From Granulosicoccus sp. (GTDB taxonomy: Bacteria > Pseudomonadota > Gammaproteobacteria > Granulosicoccales > Granulosicoccaceae): a stretch of DNA of 64,000 nucleotides. This document shows positions 48,499 through 60,260 of this stretch, one piece after another; position 1 is the first letter of the stretch, and the number at the start of each line of letters is the position of its first letter. The DNA lies in contig JAHDGK010000008.1 in NCBI GenBank assembly GCA_020627685.1, positions 1 through 64,000 on the forward strand, in the 5' to 3' direction. The translations under genes were made by a program, and so were the position numbers. The notes below the pieces were generated by a model. The model worked only from the letters and a program-made list of their open reading frames with translations, had not been told where the DNA came from and made no database searches.

Positions 48499-49788
48499 CT
48501 AGGCCACGTCCCCCAGTAATTTGCCGTTCTCTACCGCACGCATTTTTACGGGCAAAATCTGATTGGCAAGATTGCGCTTACTAACGGTCATCACCCTTTG
48601 GTAGTTTGGCGTGTATCCCTGATGCCGCCAGACGGTCGAGCCATCTTCTTCGGTCATTTCACGTCCGCGCTCCCACAATACGTCGGCAGTTTCTCCGACT
48701 GAGCGTTCGAGCTGTGCTTGCTTCAAGCGTTCCGCCAGTTGGTGGAGCTCCCGGCTGCGTTCCTGACGAACCGCCATGGGAACCGAGTCGGGTAGTGAGG
48801 CTGCCTTGGTGCCTTCTCGCTCAGAATAAGTGAAAGCGTGGATATGACCGAAACGTTGGGTTTCGATAAACGCCAGAGACTCACGCCATTCCTCGTCTGT
48901 TTCACCCGGGAAGCCTGCGATGATATCGGTGGTGATATTGAAATTGGGCACGGCCCTGACCAGCGCTGTTGTCAGTTCGTCAAACGCCTGCGTTTTGCAG
49001 CGACGAGCCATTCGTCTTAAGACGGTATCGCTGCCACTTTGAAGTGGCAGATGCATGTGGGGTTGCACTCGTGGGTTCTCGAACAGGTCGAGAAAAGACT
49101 CCGACAGATCCCAAGGCTCCACCGACGCGAACCTTATCCTGGGTATGTCGGTATCCTCAATCAGCGCCTTGACTAGCGATGCCAAGTCCGTATCTAGGTC
49201 GGATCCGTAGCCACCGACGTGAACGCCGGTTAAAACAACTTCCTTAACGTCTTCTGATTGAAGCGCGCGAACCTCTTCGACGATTTCGCTGATTGTGCGA
49301 CTGCGCTCGGCTCCGCGGGCAACAGTCACGATGCAAAAAGTGCATCGGTATCGGCATCCGTCCTGTATTTTGATGAACGCGCGGTGTCTATTCCGGTTAA
49401 ATAGTGCAGTAGTGGCTGGTATTGTTGCTGCCTGCGGCATATCGGGTTGTACAAATGCCTCACGCGTCAGAGCAACCAAATTATCTTTCTTGGTATTGGG
49501 AACGACGAGGTCTACACCGAGCTCTGCCATGTCGGATGCCGGTGCCAGTTCGCTGTAGCAGCCACTAACCACAAGCTTTGCAGCAGGATTGTCCCGTTGT
49601 AGGCGCTGTAATTTTTGTCGTGATTTTCGAACCGCCTCACGCGTTACCGCACAAGTGTTCATCACCATGACATCCGCATCGTCCGGGGTTGTGGTGATTT
49701 GGTCGCCGGCGCCCTTGAAAGCGGTTGCCCATTGCTCTAATTCGGCTTCGTTTAGCCGACAACCTAGAGCGCTAAGATGAATACGCAC
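48499..49788 (-). CDS. mtaB: tRNA t6A37 methylthiotransferase MtaB-like
   Basis: Radical-SAM enzyme that adds a methylthio group to N6-threonylcarbamoyladenosine 37 of tRNA. The 429-residue protein has the N-terminal UPF0004 domain with ALGCRLNEAE, NTCAVT and VSGCYSELAP (three cluster cysteines), the radical SAM motif CRYRCTFC, and a C-terminal TRAM-like region. The CRLN motif and short length favour MtaB over MiaB or RimO. Convergent with allE. Confidence 0.93.
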   Translation of the reverse strand: MRIHLSALGCRLNEAELEQWATAFKGAGDQITTTPDDADVMVMNTCAVTREAVRKSRQKLQRLQRDNPAAKLVVSGCYSELAPASDMAELGVDLVVPNTKKDNLVALTREAFVQPDMPQAATIPATTALFNRNRHRAFIKIQDGCRYRCTFCIVTVARGAERSRTISEIVEEVRALQSEDVKEVVLTGVHVGGYGSDLDTDLASLVKALIEDTDIPRIRFASVEPWDLSESFLDLFENPRVQPHMHLPLQSGSDTVLRRMARRCKTQAFDELTTALVRAVPNFNITTDIIAGFPGETDEEWRESLAFIETQRFGHIHAFTYSEREGTKAASLPDSVPMAVRQERSRELHQLAERLKQAQLERSVGETADVLWERGREMTEEDGSTVWRHQGYTPNYQRVMTVSKRNLANQILPVKMRAVENGKLLGDVA

Positions 49789-49957: not shown

Positions 49958-52900
49958 ATGTTTAGAGATTTTGAGAAGGCTCCTAGCCGATCTTCGTATC
50001 AATTGAAATTCGTCCTTGCTGCATTAGCCCTGTTGGGGCTGTTGGGAGCATGGATTGCGCAGTCCAGTACCAAAAGCGACTTAAGAAGCACACAGGAAGA
50101 CAGGGCTAAAGTTAGTGCTCTTCTCGACCAAAAAACCGCTGAATTGGGCGATGCTGAAAAAGACATCGAAAATTTAAGAAGCGAGCAAGCCTCTCTGGAA
50201 GAGGCCATAAGCGCGCGAGAAGCTGAATTGGCGGCGTTGCAAACTCAAGTATCCGAGTTAGACCAAGGCCGTTCTGAAGTCCAAGGGTTGTTGGCTAACG
50301 TTACGGAATCAAAAACTGGCCTGGAGGGTACGATTGCCGATTTAGAAGCCCAGCTTCAGGCATCTTCCGAACAATTCCAAGCCTTGGAAGCAGAGCGAGC
50401 TGCGGCTTCTGCCGAACTCGAACAGGCAGTTGCCTCATTTGACTTACAGACCAACGAACGTGTTGCAGCTCTGGAAGCTGAGCTAAGCGCCTCATTGGCA
50501 GCGGCTGACGAGAAACTGGCCGGAGCCAACCAAGCGGCATCAGAGGCCCTCGCAGCGGCACAGCAAGAAGCTAGCGACACCGTGGCAGCTGCAGAACAAC
50601 GAATTGGTGAGCTGGAAGCTGAGTTAGCATCCACTGCCACCAGCAATGAAGAGAAAACGATTGCCCTGGAGGCAGAAATCGCAGCCTTGCAAGGTGAGAT
50701 CGAGGCGTTCACGGCAAGTTCCGAAACGCGCGTTGCCGCTCTTCAGGCAGAAATTGCTGACCTGAACGAGCAAATGGGTAGCCAGACAGCTGCTCTGCAA
50801 TCTCGGGAAATCAACATGGGCTCATTCGATGCTCAGATTCAGTCGCTTCAAGCATCAAGCGATTCGGTCAGTGTCGAGCTTGCTGATGCGCAAGCCAGTT
50901 ACAACACTCTGCTGAGCTTATACGACACAGATGTTGCGCTAATGAACGCAGAGATTGGCGAACTCGAGGCTAAGAAAGCACTGTTGGACGGTGAGCTAGG
51001 CGGCCTGCGTACTAAGGTTGGCTCGTTAGAAGACAGCTTGGAATTTGCCCGCACCAATCTTGCGAAAACTGAAACCGCATTGGTTGAAACTCAGATGGCG
51101 CTGGAAGATACAGAAGCGGAGTTGGCAACCTCTCGCACCATGCTGGCAAGCACACAAGACGAACTGGGTGCGCAAGGACAAGCCTTGGCTGATGTCGAAA
51201 CCAATCTTGCCAACACGGCAGCTGATCTAGAATCGCAAATTGCTGAGAAAGTTGCTGCTTTGGCTGATCTGGAATCACAATTTTCTGCTTTGAATGATCA
51301 GTACGCTGCTGCTCAAAGTGAAATCGAACAACGCGACTCGAAAATGGGTGAACTGAGCACAGAAGTGCAGTCGTTGTTGTTTAGTGCGGGTGAGAAAGAC
51401 ACCGCACTTGAAACCACAGAACAAAACTTGGCCACGCTTCAAGCTGACTTCGATAACCAGGTCGTCGAATTGAACGCCGAAATTGGAGAACTCGAAGCTC
51501 AGAAACAGGCCCTTCAGCTAGAAGTCGATGATCTCACCGCTCAAACGGTGGTGCTCAGCGATTCAAAAGCGCAGCTGCAATTGGCGATGGGTGGATTGCA
51601 AACACGTCTTGAAGCAGTAGAGGCTGAGAGTGCAGAAGTTGCTGAATCAAGCAACGCACAAATCCAGAGCTTACAAAGTGAATTTGGTCTTCAGAGTCAA
51701 ACCTTGAACAGTAACTTGGCTGAGCTGCAATCGCAGACATCTGCATTGTCTGAAGAGAGAGACGCATTACTCGCCGAAAAAGAGGCTCTACTTGCGCAAG
51801 TGGTGCAGCTTGAAACCGATCGCGACACTCTGTCCAGTGCACAGGTGGCTTTGGAGTCAGAGAAAGAAGCGGCGACTGGCGAAATTGTAGAGCTGCAAGC
51901 TGAGGCAGGAGAGCTTCAAGCTATCGTTGATTTACAGAAGCCTGCTATCAGCGAACTTCGCGCAAGAAGTGCGTCGTTAGAGCAAGAACTGGCAGATGCA
52001 AAAGCGGCTGCTGCAGAAGAGCAAGCTGCCTATGACGCAGAACTAGCAGAACTCCAGGCAACGATTGATTTGCAGGTTCCCGCATTGGCAGAGCTACGTT
52101 CGCGCAGTAACGAGCTAGACACCCAAAGAGCCGAACTGGCGACTCGAGTTACTGAGTTAGAAGGTCTGCTTGAGGATACCAAAGGGACGCAGAGCGAACA
52201 GGTTGCAGCGGCACAGGCAATATCTGAAGAATTGCAAGCCACTATCGATTTGCAGGTACCGGCCATCTCTGAGTTGAGAAGCCGGGCAACATCGTTAGAA
52301 GGTGAATTGTCTGCCAGCCAGGCTGAGCGTCAGTCACTTATGGCAACCGTTGCAGAACAGGAATCGTCATTGGCAGAACTGCGTGAGCGCAGCGCCTCTT
52401 TGCAAAGCGAGATTGAAGGAAAGAATGTAGAAATCGCTGAGCTTCAGGCAACCGTTGACGAGCAAGTCCCGGCTATTTCTCTCTTACGCAGTCAGATCGG
52501 TGATGTTGATGCACAACGTGCGGGCATGGTCGCTCAAATAAGTGATCTGGAAGCGCAGTTGGCCGTTGCAACAGAAGCTGCTGAGCAAGCGTCAGCGGTT
52601 GAAGGCCTCGAAGCTGAGAAGGCTGCTTTACAAATGCAGATAGGCACCATGCAGACTCGTATTGAGTCAATCATGGCAGACGCTGAAGCGAACAACTCCG
52701 GTTTCGCTGAGTTGCAAGCTCAGAAAGCTGCACTTCAAGCAACAATAGGTGAACTGCAGGGTAATTTGGAAGCTGCTGCAGAAGCTAAAGGGTCCGCCGA
52801 TGCGGACATGGCAGCGTTAGAAACGCAGAAGTCTGCATTGCAATTACAAGTGGGTGACATGCAGACTCAACTCGAATCCATGTCAGCTGACGCTGAGACC

Positions 52901-54532
52901 AATGGTTCTGCTATGGCCGAATTGCAAAGCCAAACCGTTGAATTACAGGCGCGTGTTGGTGAACTTGAAGCCGAGTTAGCTGCAGCAGCTGAAGTCAAAG
53001 CCACTGCAGAATCTCAAGTGGGTGAACTCTCAACTCAAAAATCTGCTTTGTTCATGAAGATTGGTGAGATGCAGAACTTGTTGGAAGAGAGTGATGCTGA
53101 GGCCAGCGCTGATGTCGCAAAGCTAGAGTCGCATAAGACGGCTTTGTTCGACCGTGTTGTTCAGTTACAAAATTCGATCAACGAAAAAGACGCTCAGTTG
53201 GGTGAAGGTGCAACGGCTGCAGAATCTTTGGAAGCCAGCAATGCTGAGCTAAATACCCAGGTCGCAGACTTAACCGCAGCCCGCGATGCTTCACTTGAGC
53301 AGTTAAGTGCTCTGGAGACTGAACAAGCTGCGCTTAATAAAGCATTGGCTGGTTTAGAGTCTGTCAATGCTGAGCTCACTGAAAAGGTTGCAGGCTTAGA
53401 GGCAGACAAAGCAACGCTCGAAGGAGATTTAAGTTCTGCAAACGAGTCTGCTGAAGCCTTGGCAGCCGCAAGTGCTGCAGATAAAGAGGGTTTGTCTGCA
53501 CAGCTCATCGGGGTCGTTGGTGAGCGAGATGGCCTCCTGTCTGAAGTGGTAGAACTGGGGGTTATGGTTGGCGATTTAGAAGGCCAGCTTTCAGTGGCAA
53601 CGGACAAAGCTGCGGCTAATGAGACACGGGTCGGTGAGCTGGAAACTGAGTTAGCGACAACCGTTGAATCGGCAGATGCAAGTAGTGCTGCTGCTGCTGA
53701 CGCACAGAAGAATCTCGAGCAGCAAGTTGCTGATACCGTAGCGGCTAAAGATGCTCTGGAAGCAGAGCTTGCTGAAGCTGAGAAGAGTGTTCTTGATCTG
53801 CAAGCTCGCAAGGAAGCTCTAGAAGCTGAGAAGCTTGCGTTAGAGACGCAGGTGGGCGAGATGGATAAGGCAGCGACCGAACTCGAATCGCAACTTGCCG
53901 ATGCTAACGCTAGCAATGAAACTCTCACTTCTGCACTGGCTGACGCTGATGCTTTCGCGGTAGGTTTACGTGATGAGATTCGTAATGAACGAGCGAATCT
54001 GACACAGGCGCGTGCTGAAAATACTGATTTATCAGGTCAGCTCACGGCGATCACGGAACAAAGCGCAGAAGAGTCAAACCGTGCTGCTGCGTTGAGAGAT
54101 ACCATTGATGAGCGTTTGAAGGCGAATGGCGTTGAAAATGTTGAAGTGACTATTCGTGATGACAACGGCGTTGTAATCAACCTACCCAGTCAGGCGCTGT
54201 TCAACTCGGGGCGTGCCCGATTGAGTGCCCCGGGTCGTAGACTAATGGCAAGTGTTGCTGCATCGGTTAAAGACTTGGACAACGACATTGTCGTCGAAGG
54301 TCACACCGATAGCGTTCCTGTTACCGGTGACTTGCAAGCTATCTTTCCAAGCAATTGGGAGCTATCGGTAGCCCGTGCTGCGAATACAGTTAACTACCTC
54401 GAGTCGGTTGGTGGGGTTGATTCACGCCGTTTAGGTGCGCTGGGTTATGGCCAGCAACGCCCCGTGGCAGGTAATGACACACGAGAAGGCCGAGCGCTCA
54501 ATCGTCGAGTGGAGTTGGTTGTAAAACCTTGA
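49958..54532 (+). CDS. Giant coiled-coil protein with C-terminal OmpA/MotB-like domain
   Basis: A 1524-residue protein: a short basic N-terminus, one transmembrane helix (about 16-34, LKFVLAALALLGLLGAWIA), about 1,340 residues of Ala/Glu/Leu/Gln-rich coiled coil without proline breaks except in repeated motifs, and a C-terminal OmpA-like peptidoglycan-binding domain (about 1390-1524). The last domain has VVEGHTDSVPV, SNWELSVARAANTV and GYGQQRPVAGNDTREGRALNRR, closest to the MotB type. Recurrent units are seen, for example ELQATIDLQVPAL near residues 697 and 757 with relatives near 651 and 827. An inner-membrane anchor plus a wall-binding end implies a periplasmic link, but a straight coil of this size (~200 nm) far exceeds the periplasm. 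Function unknown; motor-related, envelope scaffold or cell-shape roles are possible. Confidence 0.8.
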   Translation: MFRDFEKAPSRSSYQLKFVLAALALLGLLGAWIAQSSTKSDLRSTQEDRAKVSALLDQKTAELGDAEKDIENLRSEQASLEEAISAREAELAALQTQVSELDQGRSEVQGLLANVTESKTGLEGTIADLEAQLQASSEQFQALEAERAAASAELEQAVASFDLQTNERVAALEAELSASLAAADEKLAGANQAASEALAAAQQEASDTVAAAEQRIGELEAELASTATSNEEKTIALEAEIAALQGEIEAFTASSETRVAALQAEIADLNEQMGSQTAALQSREINMGSFDAQIQSLQASSDSVSVELADAQASYNTLLSLYDTDVALMNAEIGELEAKKALLDGELGGLRTKVGSLEDSLEFARTNLAKTETALVETQMALEDTEAELATSRTMLASTQDELGAQGQALADVETNLANTAADLESQIAEKVAALADLESQFSALNDQYAAAQSEIEQRDSKMGELSTEVQSLLFSAGEKDTALETTEQNLATLQADFDNQVVELNAEIGELEAQKQALQLEVDDLTAQTVVLSDSKAQLQLAMGGLQTRLEAVEAESAEVAESSNAQIQSLQSEFGLQSQTLNSNLAELQSQTSALSEERDALLAEKEALLAQVVQLETDRDTLSSAQVALESEKEAATGEIVELQAEAGELQAIVDLQKPAISELRARSASLEQELADAKAAAAEEQAAYDAELAELQATIDLQVPALAELRSRSNELDTQRAELATRVTELEGLLEDTKGTQSEQVAAAQAISEELQATIDLQVPAISELRSRATSLEGELSASQAERQSLMATVAEQESSLAELRERSASLQSEIEGKNVEIAELQATVDEQVPAISLLRSQIGDVDAQRAGMVAQISDLEAQLAVATEAAEQASAVEGLEAEKAALQMQIGTMQTRIESIMADAEANNSGFAELQAQKAALQATIGELQGNLEAAAEAKGSADADMAALETQKSALQLQVGDMQTQLESMSADAETNGSAMAELQSQTVELQARVGELEAELAAAAEVKATAESQVGELSTQKSALFMKIGEMQNLLEESDAEASADVAKLESHKTALFDRVVQLQNSINEKDAQLGEGATAAESLEASNAELNTQVADLTAARDASLEQLSALETEQAALNKALAGLESVNAELTEKVAGLEADKATLEGDLSSANESAEALAAASAADKEGLSAQLIGVVGERDGLLSEVVELGVMVGDLEGQLSVATDKAAANETRVGELETELATTVESADASSAAAADAQKNLEQQVADTVAAKDALEAELAEAEKSVLDLQARKEALEAEKLALETQVGEMDKAATELESQLADANASNETLTSALADADAFAVGLRDEIRNERANLTQARAENTDLSGQLTAITEQSAEESNRAAALRDTIDERLKANGVENVEVTIRDDNGVVINLPSQALFNSGRARLSAPGRRLMASVAASVKDLDNDIVVEGHTDSVPVTGDLQAIFPSNWELSVARAANTVNYLESVGGVDSRRLGALGYGQQRPVAGNDTREGRALNRRVELVVKP

Positions 54533-54590: not shown

Positions 54591-55214
54591 GTGAGCCGGG
54601 AATTCGACAAGACGATATGCGTCGCAATGACCGGCGCATCGGGTATTCAATACGCACTGAGGCTTATTGAGTGTCTGATTAAGGCCAACTGTGAGGTGTA
54701 TGTACTCATGTCGAAGCCGGCGCGCATCGTCATGGGAATGGACACCGATCTCAATGTTCCTTCCAGAACAGCTCAGGTTCAATCCCAGTTTTCAGAAAGC
54801 TATGGCGCGCGCGAAGGCCAGCTTAAGGCGTTTGGACAGGAAGAATGGACAGCCCCTGTAGCTAGCGGTTCAGGTGCGCCTGACGCCATGGTTATTTGCC
54901 CTTGTACGACAGGCACCTTGGCTTCCGTGGCTGCCGGTACTTGTAATAATTTACTCGAGCGGGCAGCCGATGTCGTTATTAAAGAAGGCCGAAAGCTGAT
55001 CGTAATGCCTCGTGAAATGCCGTTTTCTCTTATTCATCTGGAAAACATGACCCGTTTAGCTCGCGCTGGAGTCGTCATAATGCCGCCAAATCCAGCCTTT
55101 TATAACCTGCCGGAGACCGTCGACGATCTTGTCGATTTCGTGGTTGCGCGTGTTCTTGACCAGCTAGATGTCAAGCAGGCACTGATGCCGCGTTGGGGCA
55201 TCGACGAAAGCTAA
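54591..55214 (+). CDS. ubiX: Flavin prenyltransferase UbiX
   Basis: Makes prenylated FMN, the cofactor of the UbiD decarboxylase in ubiquinone synthesis. The 207-residue protein has MTGASGIQYALRLIECL, the CPCTTGTLASVAAGTCNNLLERAADV segment and MPREMPFSLIHLENM, all family hallmarks. The start is a GTG at 54591 with GAGGGG about 7 bases upstream. ubiD is not in the window. Confidence 0.95.
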   Translation: MSREFDKTICVAMTGASGIQYALRLIECLIKANCEVYVLMSKPARIVMGMDTDLNVPSRTAQVQSQFSESYGAREGQLKAFGQEEWTAPVASGSGAPDAMVICPCTTGTLASVAAGTCNNLLERAADVVIKEGRKLIVMPREMPFSLIHLENMTRLARAGVVIMPPNPAFYNLPETVDDLVDFVVARVLDQLDVKQALMPRWGIDES

Positions 55215-55221
55215 AGCCTCT

Positions 55222-55800
55222 ATGCAACTTCCGCTGTTTCCGCTCTCCAGTATTGTTATGCCAGACGGCTTAATGCCGTTACGCATCTTTGAGCGTCGAT
55301 ACATCGACATGGTCAAAGAGTGTTTTAAAAACGATTCGGGCTTTGGTATTTGCCTTATTAAACAAGGAAAAGAGGCGGGGGATGTCTCAGAACCTTATCC
55401 TTTGGGTACGCGTGTTTCAATCGTAGATTTTGATCAGGGTGCCGATGGATTGCTGCATATCACTGCCCGAGGTATCGAAGAATTTACACTTCTTACGTAT
55501 AGCTCTAATGACTCAGGTCTTCTAATAGGCGAGGTATCACCGATACCTAAAAAGCCTGCGACCGCAATGGATCCGGAGTTTGAACTGTTAGCGAAGAAAC
55601 TGGACCTCATCCTCGATTATCTTGATACCGAATCGCGCTATGAGGAGAAGAAGCTAGATGATGCGGATTGGGTTATTCACCGATTGTTAGAAGTACTACC
55701 ACTGGCGAATGAAGCTAAATTCGAGTTGTTGCAGATGGACAGCAATAGAGAGCGGTTGGAAGCTTTGGCCAACTTGCAAATAGAAATTGCAGAGCGATAA
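55222..55800 (+). CDS. Stand-alone Lon N-terminal (substrate-binding) domain protein
   Basis: A 192-residue protein consisting only of the LON N domain: PLFPLSSIVMPDGLMPLRIFERRYIDMV, then FGICLIKQG and DFDQGADGLLHITARG. No ATPase or protease part. Such proteins are common but not well understood; a substrate-recruiting role is an inference. It starts 7 bases after ubiX, so the two are probably co-transcribed. Confidence 0.9.
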   Translation: MQLPLFPLSSIVMPDGLMPLRIFERRYIDMVKECFKNDSGFGICLIKQGKEAGDVSEPYPLGTRVSIVDFDQGADGLLHITARGIEEFTLLTYSSNDSGLLIGEVSPIPKKPATAMDPEFELLAKKLDLILDYLDTESRYEEKKLDDADWVIHRLLEVLPLANEAKFELLQMDSNRERLEALANLQIEIAER

Positions 55801-57371: not shown

Positions 57372-60260
57372 ATGATGAATTATCAGGAGTACGCTTTAGT
57401 GACAGAATTTGGGATGAGTAAACGGTGTGCATTGCGCAGCGAAAGGCGTGTTAGTCACCTATTCGGGCGTGTAACCTCCCTGATCTTGTTGGTATTGTTC
57501 CTATTGCCTATTCACAGGGTTGCCGCTTCGGAAGAGGCAGGCTGGGCCAACACGGTTTCCAAAGCTGCCAACTCAGTCGTGTCTTTGCAGTTGTCGCAAC
57601 TGCGTAACTTCGACGACTCCGAACAAGGAGGAAGCAACGCAACCGGCTTTGTGGTGGATGCTGAATTGGGCATTGTCCTGACAAACAGGCACGTTGTGGG
57701 TTCCGGACCCATTCGTTTAAATGCGACTTTTCAAAACCAGGAAAGGGTTGTCGCTGTACCTCTGTATCGAGATCCGATTCATGATTTTGCTTTCGTCCGC
57801 TATGATCCGGCAGCTCTGCAGTATGCTCAGCCCACTTCCTTGCAGCTAAGACCTGACAAAGTCAGCACGGGTATGAATATCCGCGTTATCGGCAGTGATG
57901 GTGGTGAGCAGCTCTCTATTCTGCCGGGCACCATAGCCAGGCTTGACCGCGAAGTTCCCTCGTATGGGCGCTATGGTTATAACGACTTTAATACGTTTTA
58001 TCTTCAAGCCGCTTCCGGCACCTCGGGTGGAAGTTCAGGTTCACCGGTTATAGATATTGACGGGGACGTAGTTGCGCTTAATGCAGCGGCTAATACGCAG
58101 ACTGCGAGTAGTTTCTTTTTACCCTTGCCCAGAATTCAATATGCATTGAAGCGATTGCAAGCCGGTGAAGCTATCGACAGAGGAGGTTTTCAAACTTTAT
58201 TCTCACAGCAGCCGTTTCGTGAGCTGCTGCGACTAGGGCTTAGCGAAGAGCTGGAAGCCCGGGTAAGAAGCGAAGACCCTCAAACCAATGGCATGCTGAC
58301 AGTGGGGCAGGTTATACCCGGAGGCGTCGCCGATACGATACTCGAGCCGGGAGATATCCTGGTCTCCATAGACGGGCAGTTGGTGACCAACTTCATAAAC
58401 CTGGAGGACAAACTTGATCGGTCGATCGGCCAGCAACTGGATGTCGAAATTATTCGGCTGGGGCAACAACAATCGGTCGTTATCGGTGTAACAGATTTAA
58501 ATGCGATCGCGCCGAGTAAATTATTTGAACTGGGTGATTCCATCATTCAGGACATGTCCATTCAGCATGCACGCGCTATGAACCTCCCACAGAAAGGGGT
58601 CGTCCTTATGCGTTCGGGCTTTGTATTCACCAAAGGTGGTGTGCCTCAGGGGGCATTGATCACTGAAGTCGATGGTCAATCGATGACCAACCTTGAGAGC
58701 TTTATTGATGCGATAGCAAGACCGAGCAAGGACAATAAAAAACGGATTCGATTTATTGTGCCTCGCCGGGAGTTTTCCTCGGAGGTTGCACAGATAGAAA
58801 TTGGCAATAACTGGTTCGACAATCGGCTGTGCGAACGTGTCGACGACGTGCGTTTCTGGAATTGTGAAAGTGTTGAGTTAAGCGTACAGCAGGATGTTCA
58901 GGGAAGCGGCTTACTCCGAGTACCGCGGTATGAAGACCCATTGCTTAATGCTGTCGCACCCGCCATGGTTCGAGTTGATTTCAGTATTCCGTACTCTATT
59001 GACAATGTCTATGCCCGTCATTTTAAAGGTGTAGGGCTGGTTATTGATAAGGAGGCTGGTCTTGTCGCTGTTGACAGGAATACCGTGCCCATCGGTTTGG
59101 GCGATGCAAAAATTACGTTTTTTGGTTCTCAAATTTTAGCGGGGAAAGTTGTTTTTCTACACCCCAGACACAACATCGCGTTTGTTCAATACGATGTTGA
59201 TAGCTTGGCTGGTGCCGAATTTGAAGCCTTGAAATTAACAGAGGGTGGCACGACGCTACCGGATGATCTGACAATGATTGGGTATCGTTCTGACGGGACT
59301 TTTAGAGCACATCCTATTGATGATATTAGTCGCTTGACGGTGGGTTTTAATCCACCGGGTTTACCTAGATTTCAGCAGGCATCTATCGATGTACTGGGTG
59401 TGCCGAATGTACCTCCCTCTTTGGGAGGGCCTCTTGTTGATGAATCGGGGCAAGTACATGCTGTCTACATGAGTTTTGCGTTTGAAGAGGATCGTGAAAT
59501 TCGTGAACGTGAATGGGCGATGCCTGCAGCCGTATTAGCCGAGTCATTGCGAATGTATCAGTCCGGCAGCCCTTACTATTCTCTGGATACGCGCTTGGAG
59601 TATCGACCTCTGGCCTTGGCTCGAGAGTATGGACTGCCAGATGAGTGGTTAATGCAGTACTTCGATTTGCCGGCAGATATTCGTAGGGTGCTTTATGTCG
59701 ATCAATTGATCCCCAATACAGATGCAGCCGATAAATTATCTTCGGGAGATGTCCTGATAGCTATAGACGGGAAAGTTGTGTCTGAGCTTTTCTTAGCTGA
59801 AACGTTATCCCAAAAACCGACCGTATCGCTAACTATTCTTCGTGATGGCGAAGTCCTGAATGTCTCTTTGAACCCTTCAACGGTTGAAGCCTTGGGAACA
59901 ACACGGCTTGTGAGTTGGGCAGGCGCTACATTTCAGGAATCGTTCAGTGACATTGGTTATCAAAAAGGAGTTGATTTCCCGGGTGTGTACATTGCCAGCA
60001 CCAGCGAAGGTTCACCGGCCTTGTGGGACCGCCTGTATAGGAATCGTTTCGTCGTTGCGGTGGAAGGGCAAACAGTCAACAACCTGGATGAATTTTTGTC
60101 GCAGGTTAAGGCACGTGCACAAGATGAGATTACTCGGCTCACAATAGTTTCCATGAGCGGACGAAAACGCATCGTTACTGTCAAGCCGGAGTATAATTTC
60201 TGGCCGACGTTCGAGATTACTCGCGAAGACGGCGATTGGCATCGAGTGAACCATCGATAA
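57372..60260 (+). CDS. Two-domain HtrA-like serine protease with several PDZ domains (Nma111-like)
   Basis: A 962-residue exported protein (signal or anchor helix about 35-50). First trypsin-like domain: TNRHVVG (His107), HDFAFVRYD (Asp138) and GTSGGSSGSPV (Ser222), an intact catalytic triad. Two PDZ-like segments follow (about 310-370 and 405-455). A second protease-like domain (about 530-740) has lost the triad: DRNTVP (Asn570 for His), HNIAFVQYD (Asn for Asp) and PSLGGPLVD (Leu684 for Ser). Two more PDZ-like segments close the protein (about 775-830 and 865-925). This active-plus-dead arrangement is that of the fungal HtrA protein Nma111p. Probably a periplasmic quality-control protease; start site uncertain (in-frame Met15 at 57414 possible). 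Confidence 0.85.
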   Translation: MMNYQEYALVTEFGMSKRCALRSERRVSHLFGRVTSLILLVLFLLPIHRVAASEEAGWANTVSKAANSVVSLQLSQLRNFDDSEQGGSNATGFVVDAELGIVLTNRHVVGSGPIRLNATFQNQERVVAVPLYRDPIHDFAFVRYDPAALQYAQPTSLQLRPDKVSTGMNIRVIGSDGGEQLSILPGTIARLDREVPSYGRYGYNDFNTFYLQAASGTSGGSSGSPVIDIDGDVVALNAAANTQTASSFFLPLPRIQYALKRLQAGEAIDRGGFQTLFSQQPFRELLRLGLSEELEARVRSEDPQTNGMLTVGQVIPGGVADTILEPGDILVSIDGQLVTNFINLEDKLDRSIGQQLDVEIIRLGQQQSVVIGVTDLNAIAPSKLFELGDSIIQDMSIQHARAMNLPQKGVVLMRSGFVFTKGGVPQGALITEVDGQSMTNLESFIDAIARPSKDNKKRIRFIVPRREFSSEVAQIEIGNNWFDNRLCERVDDVRFWNCESVELSVQQDVQGSGLLRVPRYEDPLLNAVAPAMVRVDFSIPYSIDNVYARHFKGVGLVIDKEAGLVAVDRNTVPIGLGDAKITFFGSQILAGKVVFLHPRHNIAFVQYDVDSLAGAEFEALKLTEGGTTLPDDLTMIGYRSDGTFRAHPIDDISRLTVGFNPPGLPRFQQASIDVLGVPNVPPSLGGPLVDESGQVHAVYMSFAFEEDREIREREWAMPAAVLAESLRMYQSGSPYYSLDTRLEYRPLALAREYGLPDEWLMQYFDLPADIRRVLYVDQLIPNTDAADKLSSGDVLIAIDGKVVSELFLAETLSQKPTVSLTILRDGEVLNVSLNPSTVEALGTTRLVSWAGATFQESFSDIGYQKGVDFPGVYIASTSEGSPALWDRLYRNRFVVAVEGQTVNNLDEFLSQVKARAQDEITRLTIVSMSGRKRIVTVKPEYNFWPTFEITREDGDWHRVNHR

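Follow-up and report, generated by a model that had tools for sequence, protein, structure and literature searches.

A giant coiled-coil protein with a membrane helix and a MotB-like wall-binding domain in Granulosicoccus, a candidate tether of the cell envelope

We found that the window, that is, the whole 64,000-nucleotide stretch of Granulosicoccus DNA analyzed here, encodes a giant protein in which a short N-terminal tail is followed by one membrane helix, a very long heptad coiled coil and a MotB/OmpA-type domain. Granulosicoccus is a marine gammaproteobacterium. We judge it slightly better than an even bet that the protein tethers the inner membrane to the wall and runs along the envelope. 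The gene, its parts and its neighbours are laid out as follows (positions in the window, strand in brackets).

49958–54532 (+): gene of the giant coiled-coil protein, a candidate wall tether; open reading frame of 1524 aa with an ATG start
49958–50002 (+): N-terminal tail, residues 1–15 (MFRDFEKAPSRSSYQ), presumed cytosolic; motif in 19/19 genus copies
50003–50059 (+): single membrane helix, residues 16–34, without Asp or Glu in 19/19 copies (hydropathy, ortholog comparison)
50063–53947 (+): heptad coiled coil, residues ~36–1330, with no Cys and 4 Pro (periodicity, heptad HMM)
50405–50737 (+): stutter-rich (hendecad-like) stretch, residues ~150–260, a possible hinge (phase shifts, low heptad score, AlphaFold2 break 183–193)
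50885–50992 (+): conserved coil island, residues ~310–345, a possible partner site (genus alignment)
51911–52492 (+): four proline-bearing ELQAxxDxQxPA repeats, starting at residues 652, 698, 758 and 828 (repeat comparison)
52604–53023 (+): tandem 70-residue units, residues 883–952 and 953–1022 (53% amino-acid and 59% nucleotide identity)
53948–54124 (+): C-terminal helix without clear heptads, residues ~1331–1389 (AlphaFold2, heptad HMM)
54197–54505 (+): predicted MotB/OmpA-type peptidoglycan-binding domain, residues 1414–1516, with the triad D1451, N1466 and R1473 (Pfam, solved relatives, PorE comparison)
48499–49788 (−): mtaB-like radical-SAM gene, upstream neighbour (Pfam Radical_SAM and UPF0004; 18/18 genus loci)
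54591–55214 (+): ubiX-like flavoprotein gene, downstream neighbour (Pfam Flavoprotein; 18/18 genus loci)
55222–55800 (+): LON substrate-binding-domain gene, conserved downstream neighbour (Pfam; genus loci)

The gene and its setting are conserved across the genus. Matches were present in 22 of 23 same-genus genomes, 18 of which yielded full-length copies, giving with the window a set of 19 copies of 1278–1723 aa; copies short of full length were cut by contig ends (G007, G010 and G016) or reduced to a diverged 410-aa frame (G005). The radical-SAM gene upstream and the flavoprotein gene downstream, which we take to be mtaB and ubiX, and the further neighbours to which we presumptively give the names LON and argA, were kept at 18/18 full-length loci besides the window. 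All of these look like housekeeping genes and carry no functional hint. In G005 and G011 neither the full coil gene nor ubiX was found, and the absence of the coil gene there may be only apparent. Outside the genus, 20 loci were taken from four further genera of the same family, and 9 of them adjoin the mtaB and/or LON gene; the corresponding locus in genus g17 (strain I2M11, L102; L178) holds a 518-aa ORF, of about 494 aa should MFDRF be its start.

Several further features of the surroundings were recorded. Two long antisense open frames lie within the coil gene (53194–53928 and 50356–50712, both on the − strand) and are probably shadows of codon usage. Downstream (57372–60260, +), a protein of 962 aa combines trypsin-like with PDZ domains; Trypsin_2 and PDZ_1 each match two stretches of it, which may reflect a DegP-like arrangement in duplicate, and the protein is found near the locus in other genera too. 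The window genome (4.93 Mb, with the window on contig G000:C62) contains 23 OmpA-domain matches, 3 of them in open frames of 3021–4410 aa (G000:C42:115849, G000:C88:59153 and G000:C82:53537). NCBI places the family of Granulosicoccus in Chromatiales.

At the N-terminus, the start motif MF[RK][DE]FE[KR]xPS[RK]SSYQ was present in 19/19 full-length genus copies, which had been excised at its first seven residues, the motif standing there at all 18 loci used. This conservation supports the ATG start. The best 19-residue hydropathy window spans residues 16–34, a segment with no acidic residue in any of the 19 copies, and Cys is absent from the whole protein in the same 19. An earlier note on this DNA had raised the possibility that the helix is a cleaved signal. 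The simple (−3,−1) rule does permit a cleavage site after residue 36 in 13/19 copies, but the genus-wide N-tail motif and the long N-tails of relatives (~40 residues ahead of the helix in genus g275 copies and about 200–245 in six paralogues) make a cleaved signal unlikely.

The coil is strongly periodic. Strong hydrophobic residues recur with a period of 3.512 residues (power 8.9), the next peak being about ninefold weaker (power 1.0). A heptad HMM with seven states was trained on 8 orthologs, the window copy included, and gained 0.42 bit per residue but only 0.012 when trained on shuffles; it gave z = 18–45 on 12 held-out proteins of other genera. For the controls, 5 further proteins encoded in the window, z was −0.8 to 2.6, and the window coil, itself part of the training set, reached 39. 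The trained model prefers L/V/I at position a, L at d and E/Q at e and g, which may be taken as the pattern typical of parallel dimers. Three-step stutters make up 18 of the 19 phase shifts in the window copy, and residues ~150–260 hold seven such shifts. In 70-residue scoring windows between residue 36 and about 1365, the heptad score was 0.28–0.62 bit, apart from a weak stretch at 141–245 (0.09–0.19 bit); it was about zero or negative in scoring windows starting at residue 1331 or later. The heptad coil runs from about residue 36 to 1330, or about 1295 residues, and AlphaFold2 extends the helix beyond the heptads to residue 1389. At the coil rise of 0.1485 nm per residue, the contour length would be about 192–201 nm if straight. 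Thus, the long coil that the earlier note had placed between a membrane helix and a MotB-like domain is borne out by the heptad HMM, hydropathy and Pfam OmpA analyses, as is its estimate that a straight coil would measure ~200 nm, far beyond the periplasm.

Within the coil, Y315, L318, L319, Y322, D325 and G334 of the island at ~310–345 were invariant in an alignment of 20 genus sequences; the island was rejected as a family-wide motif, its short pattern being matched only loosely, in L194 and L195, among 12 relatives. Pfam coil matches fell below their cut-offs except for two generic families, ATG16 and Pox_A_type_inc, and NCBIfam coil matches did likewise (best 25 of 48). We read the matches to known coil families (SMC, crescentin and others) as generic coil similarity.

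These data bear on whether the chain folds back on itself, forming antiparallel hairpins at hinge-like breaks and thereby a compact bundle of some tens of nm that spans or lines a periplasm of normal depth. We modelled residues 1090–1524 with AlphaFold2 (mean pLDDT 82, pTM 0.41) and obtained helices at 1091–1209 and 1217–1389 followed by the OmpA fold, with a low-confidence break at about 1210–1216. The model of residues 1–1000 was poor (mean pLDDT 65.5, pTM 0.24), with seven helices of 31–202 residues, four of 4–7, and breaks at 183–193, 297–306, 459–535, 738–746 and 873–881. Such low-confidence breaks in both halves favour fold-back, as do the clustering of phase shifts at about 150–260 and a one-residue phase shift near residue 872 that recurs in several other copies. 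However, the heptad score stays at 0.33–0.57 bit across the model breaks at 459–535 and 738–746 (70-residue scoring windows), and the near-continuous heptads speak against hairpins. Moreover, the CCfrag paper reports that AlphaFold bends and breaks long coils spuriously, the EEA1 and myosin stalks being interrupted in full-length models and continuous when modelled piecewise (PMC11676326), and we therefore gave most of the breaks low weight; the break at 183–193 still counts, because it lies within the weak, stutter-rich stretch. On balance we regard fold-back as unlikely, though not negligibly so. The compact bundle of a known family that the earlier note had also envisaged is met by no specific coil family above cut-off among the matches listed and by nearly unbroken heptads, while the AlphaFold2 breaks leave some room for the bundle itself.

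We further examined how the coil changes in length. The four ELQAxxDxQxPA copies and the tandem 70-residue pair agree with the growth by duplication that the earlier note had proposed from internal repeats, and a 70-residue gap separates the window copy from its nearest ortholog in the alignment. Across 14 close pairs, which are not independent, the 143 gaps were distributed as 65/14/4/20/34/2/4 over remainders 0–6 modulo 7. We then chose disjoint ortholog pairs by falling identity. Six such pairs (62–86% identity) had 23 of 46 gaps at multiples of 7 (binomial P = 1e-8) and 41 of 46 at remainders 0, 3 or 4 (P = 7e-11). With nine disjoint pairs, down to 37% identity, the counts were 37 of 98 and 80 of 98, respectively, the lowest-identity pair being weaker (15 of 24 gaps at 0, 3 or 4). 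Random gaps simulated in the same coils and passed through the same aligner returned their roughly even true remainders at 86, 75 and 63% identity, which rules out an alignment artefact for 63–86% identity, a range outside which the three lowest of the nine pairs lie (58, 56 and 37%). Selection for superhelix phase, recombination of in-register repeats, or both together may account for the register-keeping gaps. The coil dN/dS was 0.074, 0.066 and 0.106 in the 3 of 6 pairs where it could be estimated, values that are rough because coil dS is 1.3–2.9, and that of the OmpA domain in the same pairs was 0.020, 0.039 and 0.077, respectively. The survey of length variation that the earlier note had called for gives 1278–1723 aa in the 19 genus copies and ~494 aa in the sister genus, so the exact length is not needed.

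Two readings take this tolerance of length as their starting point. The coil may be a slack leash, bridging membrane and wall only where these have parted (plasmolysis bays, the septum or a widened periplasm) and otherwise bent or folded. A length far above the gap, the toleration of length change and the anchoring of both ends speak for it, but register is kept more strictly than a leash seems to require, and we hold the leash to be distinctly unlikely. Still less probable, in our assessment, is a near-neutral length, by which repeat recombination would have lengthened a short ancestral TM-coil-OmpA anchor of which only the ends matter. The large length variation, the tandem repeats, the ~494-aa copy at the corresponding locus in the sister genus and the short orphan proteins found elsewhere are all consistent with such a history; gaps that preserve register, the low coil dN/dS and the fact that none of the 18 other whole genus copies is shorter than 1278 aa count against it.

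The C-terminal domain was matched by Pfam OmpA (PF00691) at residues 1414–1516 (E = 3.5e-16; 59.8 bits against a cut-off of 27.2), and its top solved relatives are MotB, MotS and PomB. Among solved folds, the 1090–1524 model comes nearest to periplasmic domains from MotS, PA0833, a T6SS wall anchor and MotB. The triad D1451, N1466 and R1473 is invariant in 19/19 genus copies. In PorE, an Asp/Asn/Arg triad is described as the three side chains that contact peptidoglycan (PMC7192894), and by this correspondence the domain is predicted to bind the wall. Both envelope anchors that the earlier note had assigned are thus recovered, the membrane helix by hydropathy and the wall-binding domain by Pfam.

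A relationship to MotB raises the question of whether the protein is the B subunit of an ion-driven stator, either flagellar (MotB/MotD) or of the Zorya type (ZorB), whose linker has been enlarged. Its C-terminal domain is closest to MotD, MotS and MotB, and ZorB models match weakly (ZorB1, 66.3 bits, with the best stretch on the OmpA domain). A flagellar stator B subunit carries an acidic residue in its membrane helix; here this residue is missing in 19/19 copies. A Pfam scan of the 10 neighbouring proteins found no MotA-like gene, in line with the earlier note, and no ZorA/MotA-like partner. By eye, a MotA-like gene apparently precedes the MotB/MotD-type match in L060, L062, L063 and L065. 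The NCBIfam equivalog scores stayed far under their cut-offs (MotD 132.5 of 283, MotS 116.8 of 264), and the rows taken as flagellar B subunits lie outside the clade of the coil protein. With no channel acid in the helix and no MotA-like neighbour found, a stator role is unlikely, and these two points together with the low scores and the separate clade led us to reject it as the primary reading; we give it very little credence. The Zorya matches were set aside because they arise through the common OmpA domain and no ZorA-like gene was found among the 10 neighbours scanned. The PRK09039 equivalogs were not reached either: the whole protein scored 75.8 of 305, and its last 200 residues scored 87.5 of 388.

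Searches beyond the genus placed the protein in a wider family. In the class sample, 188 of 369 genomes matched the C-terminal profile at E ≤ 1e-25, and among the matches listed, frames above 880 aa occurred only in the window genus and one other family, f52. In the order sample (48 genomes, all of one family), 43 genomes matched at E ≤ 1e-40 with up to five matches per genome, and 38 of the 43 had at least one stop-to-stop frame of at least 800 aa (up to 1759). The four f52-order genomes carried frames of 1041–1237 aa. A phylum search at E ≤ 1e-36 returned only the window genome among 397, a strict threshold that remoter giants could escape. A 70-row tree grouped the giants in one clade of 47 rows (support 99/95) and separated 9 of the 10 rows taken as flagellar B subunits (100/99), which had been picked by eye, the tenth falling on a long branch with orphans; other orphan coil-OmpA rows also lay outside the giant clade. 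The tree rests on 137 columns and has several long branches. Within it, f52 is nested inside the family of the window, syntenic rows do not form one clade, and the giant clade includes short proteins (342-, 410- and 524-aa frames). The coil protein belongs to this supported clade of mostly giant coil proteins, from its own family and a second order, by its place in the tree, its long coil and its membrane helix. The earlier note had missed this wider setting, a family that spans the clade and includes paralogues.

Some members of the clade differ in their N-terminal parts. The non-syntenic paralogues fall into two forms when judged by eye. In six (L201, L202, L205, L206, L209 and L213), about 200–245 residues precede the membrane helix, which is followed by a giant coil and the OmpA domain; in L213 (4303–7224, −) the N-terminal region matches DUF937. 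We rejected DUF937 as a general paralogue trait, as of the three scanned (L213, L209 and L202) only L213 matched at E ≤ 1e-4. The other three non-syntenic members (L203, L210 and L211) have a signal-like N-terminus and look secreted rather than anchored. A ~335-aa relative in G017 (L190:1985–2992, +), with an N-terminal hydrophobic stretch and a short coil, forms a long branch in the giant clade.

We also compared the distribution of the giants with that of the rod-shape machinery. A search of the 48 order genomes with PF06723 put all 48 above Pfam's low cut-off of 27 bits, and full-scoring MreB (480+ bits) was confined to G168 and G412, both of genus g17; MreC was found in the same two (2/48). 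The best MreB score in the window genus (27/27 genomes) was 73 bits, mostly in frames whose sizes we take to be those of DnaK or FtsA, and we read this ceiling as the lack of an MreB. In genera g272 and g275, 15/15 genomes (G390 and 14 of g275) encode a divergent MreB/actin-like protein (130–188 bits, 351–418-aa frames; e.g., G398:C4:43459–44448), and MreC was not found in these genomes. MreB was likewise not found at E ≤ 1e-20 in the 4 f52-order genomes; it was present in 5 of 6 selected genomes with short orphan coils, the exception being G237. In the class, 339 of 370 genomes had MreB at E ≤ 1e-60. Among the matches listed, all genomes with giant frames were without full-scoring MreB, yet G090 and G237 have no MreB and no giant frame. 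Of the two genomes with full-scoring MreB, one carries the short form of ~494 aa at the locus, whereas G412, an 80% complete genome, gave no coil-protein match at E ≤ 1e-40, and the contrast of a short coil with MreB therefore comes down to one genome. The association is striking, but it is based on one or two lineages and may reflect shared ancestry. The giant coil-OmpA proteins might form a system of periplasmic fibres whose presence goes with loss of the rod-shape machinery. Lineages without MreB and MreC would then keep or enlarge a tether from cytosol through membrane to wall, which in some paralogues has an N-terminal region like DUF937, and this tether would assume the mechanical coupling or the control of shape in these cocci; we consider this a doubtful, speculative extension. 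Kelp Granulosicoccus is coccus-shaped according to a figure legend (PMC9238374).

For the favoured tether, the following arrangement can be proposed. The N-tail would stay cytosolic, with the one helix fixing the chain to the inner membrane. In the periplasm, at least two chains would coil around one another, in register and probably in parallel, over a contour of about 200 nm, with the MotB-like tip holding peptidoglycan. Because it is many times longer than the gap between membrane and wall, such a coil would have to lie along the envelope, perhaps bent near residues 150–250 and 1210. It could thereby link a point on the membrane to distant wall, or bundle into a fibre, and its part in organising the envelope would be mechanical, not that of a motor driven by ions. 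The protein may thus represent a type of fibre in the cell envelope that is as yet unstudied, and it raises the question of how membrane, cytosol and wall are coupled in cocci without MreB and MreC. Among the open-licence PubMed Central titles and abstracts listed, we found none on this protein, its family or such an inner-membrane-to-wall coil of ~200 nm. Two Granulosicoccus species held in a culture collection have been cultivated (PMC8944128), and the genus is described as the most abundant member of a kelp microbiome, with flagellar genes (PMC9238374), which makes the question of envelope coupling testable.

Among known systems, we did not class the protein as MotB, ZorB, PRK09039 or SlpA/Omp-alpha, because the features that define these were tested and found lacking. 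Like MotB, MotD and MotS, it has an N-terminal membrane helix and a C-terminal peptidoglycan-binding domain of one subfamily; unlike them, it has no channel acid, no MotA partner that was found, a ~1300-residue coil and a separate clade. PRK09039 and the orphan coil-OmpA proteins share a coil-like composition followed by an OmpA domain, and the sampled orphans have an N-terminal hydrophobic stretch as well, whereas their frames are about 240–580 aa, the PRK09039 models have 342–627 positions and the scores are sub-cut-off. Crescentin, which is cytosolic, gives a weak coil-to-coil match (Pfam Rod_CreS, 58 bits, cut-off 100). Among the long coiled-coil tethers of eukaryotes, EEA1 offers an analogy only: it is endosomal, and its ends carry different domains (zinc finger, FYVE; PMC11676326). 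Close parallels in design are Thermotoga Omp-alpha and Deinococcus SlpA/OmpM, connectors from deep-branching bacteria, described as combining a wall-binding domain, a long periplasmic coiled coil and an outer-membrane anchor, with SlpA trimeric and the Omp-alpha coil predicted at 45 nm (PMC9388160). The Granulosicoccus protein resembles them in joining a wall domain, a long coil and a membrane anchor, and in a likely role as spacer or connector. As described there, these proteins join the outer membrane to the wall via an SLH domain, which was not among the 14 Pfam matches of our protein at E ≤ 0.01; its anchor is N-terminal and presumably in the inner membrane, its wall domain is of the OmpA type, and its coil is about four times longer than that predicted for Omp-alpha.
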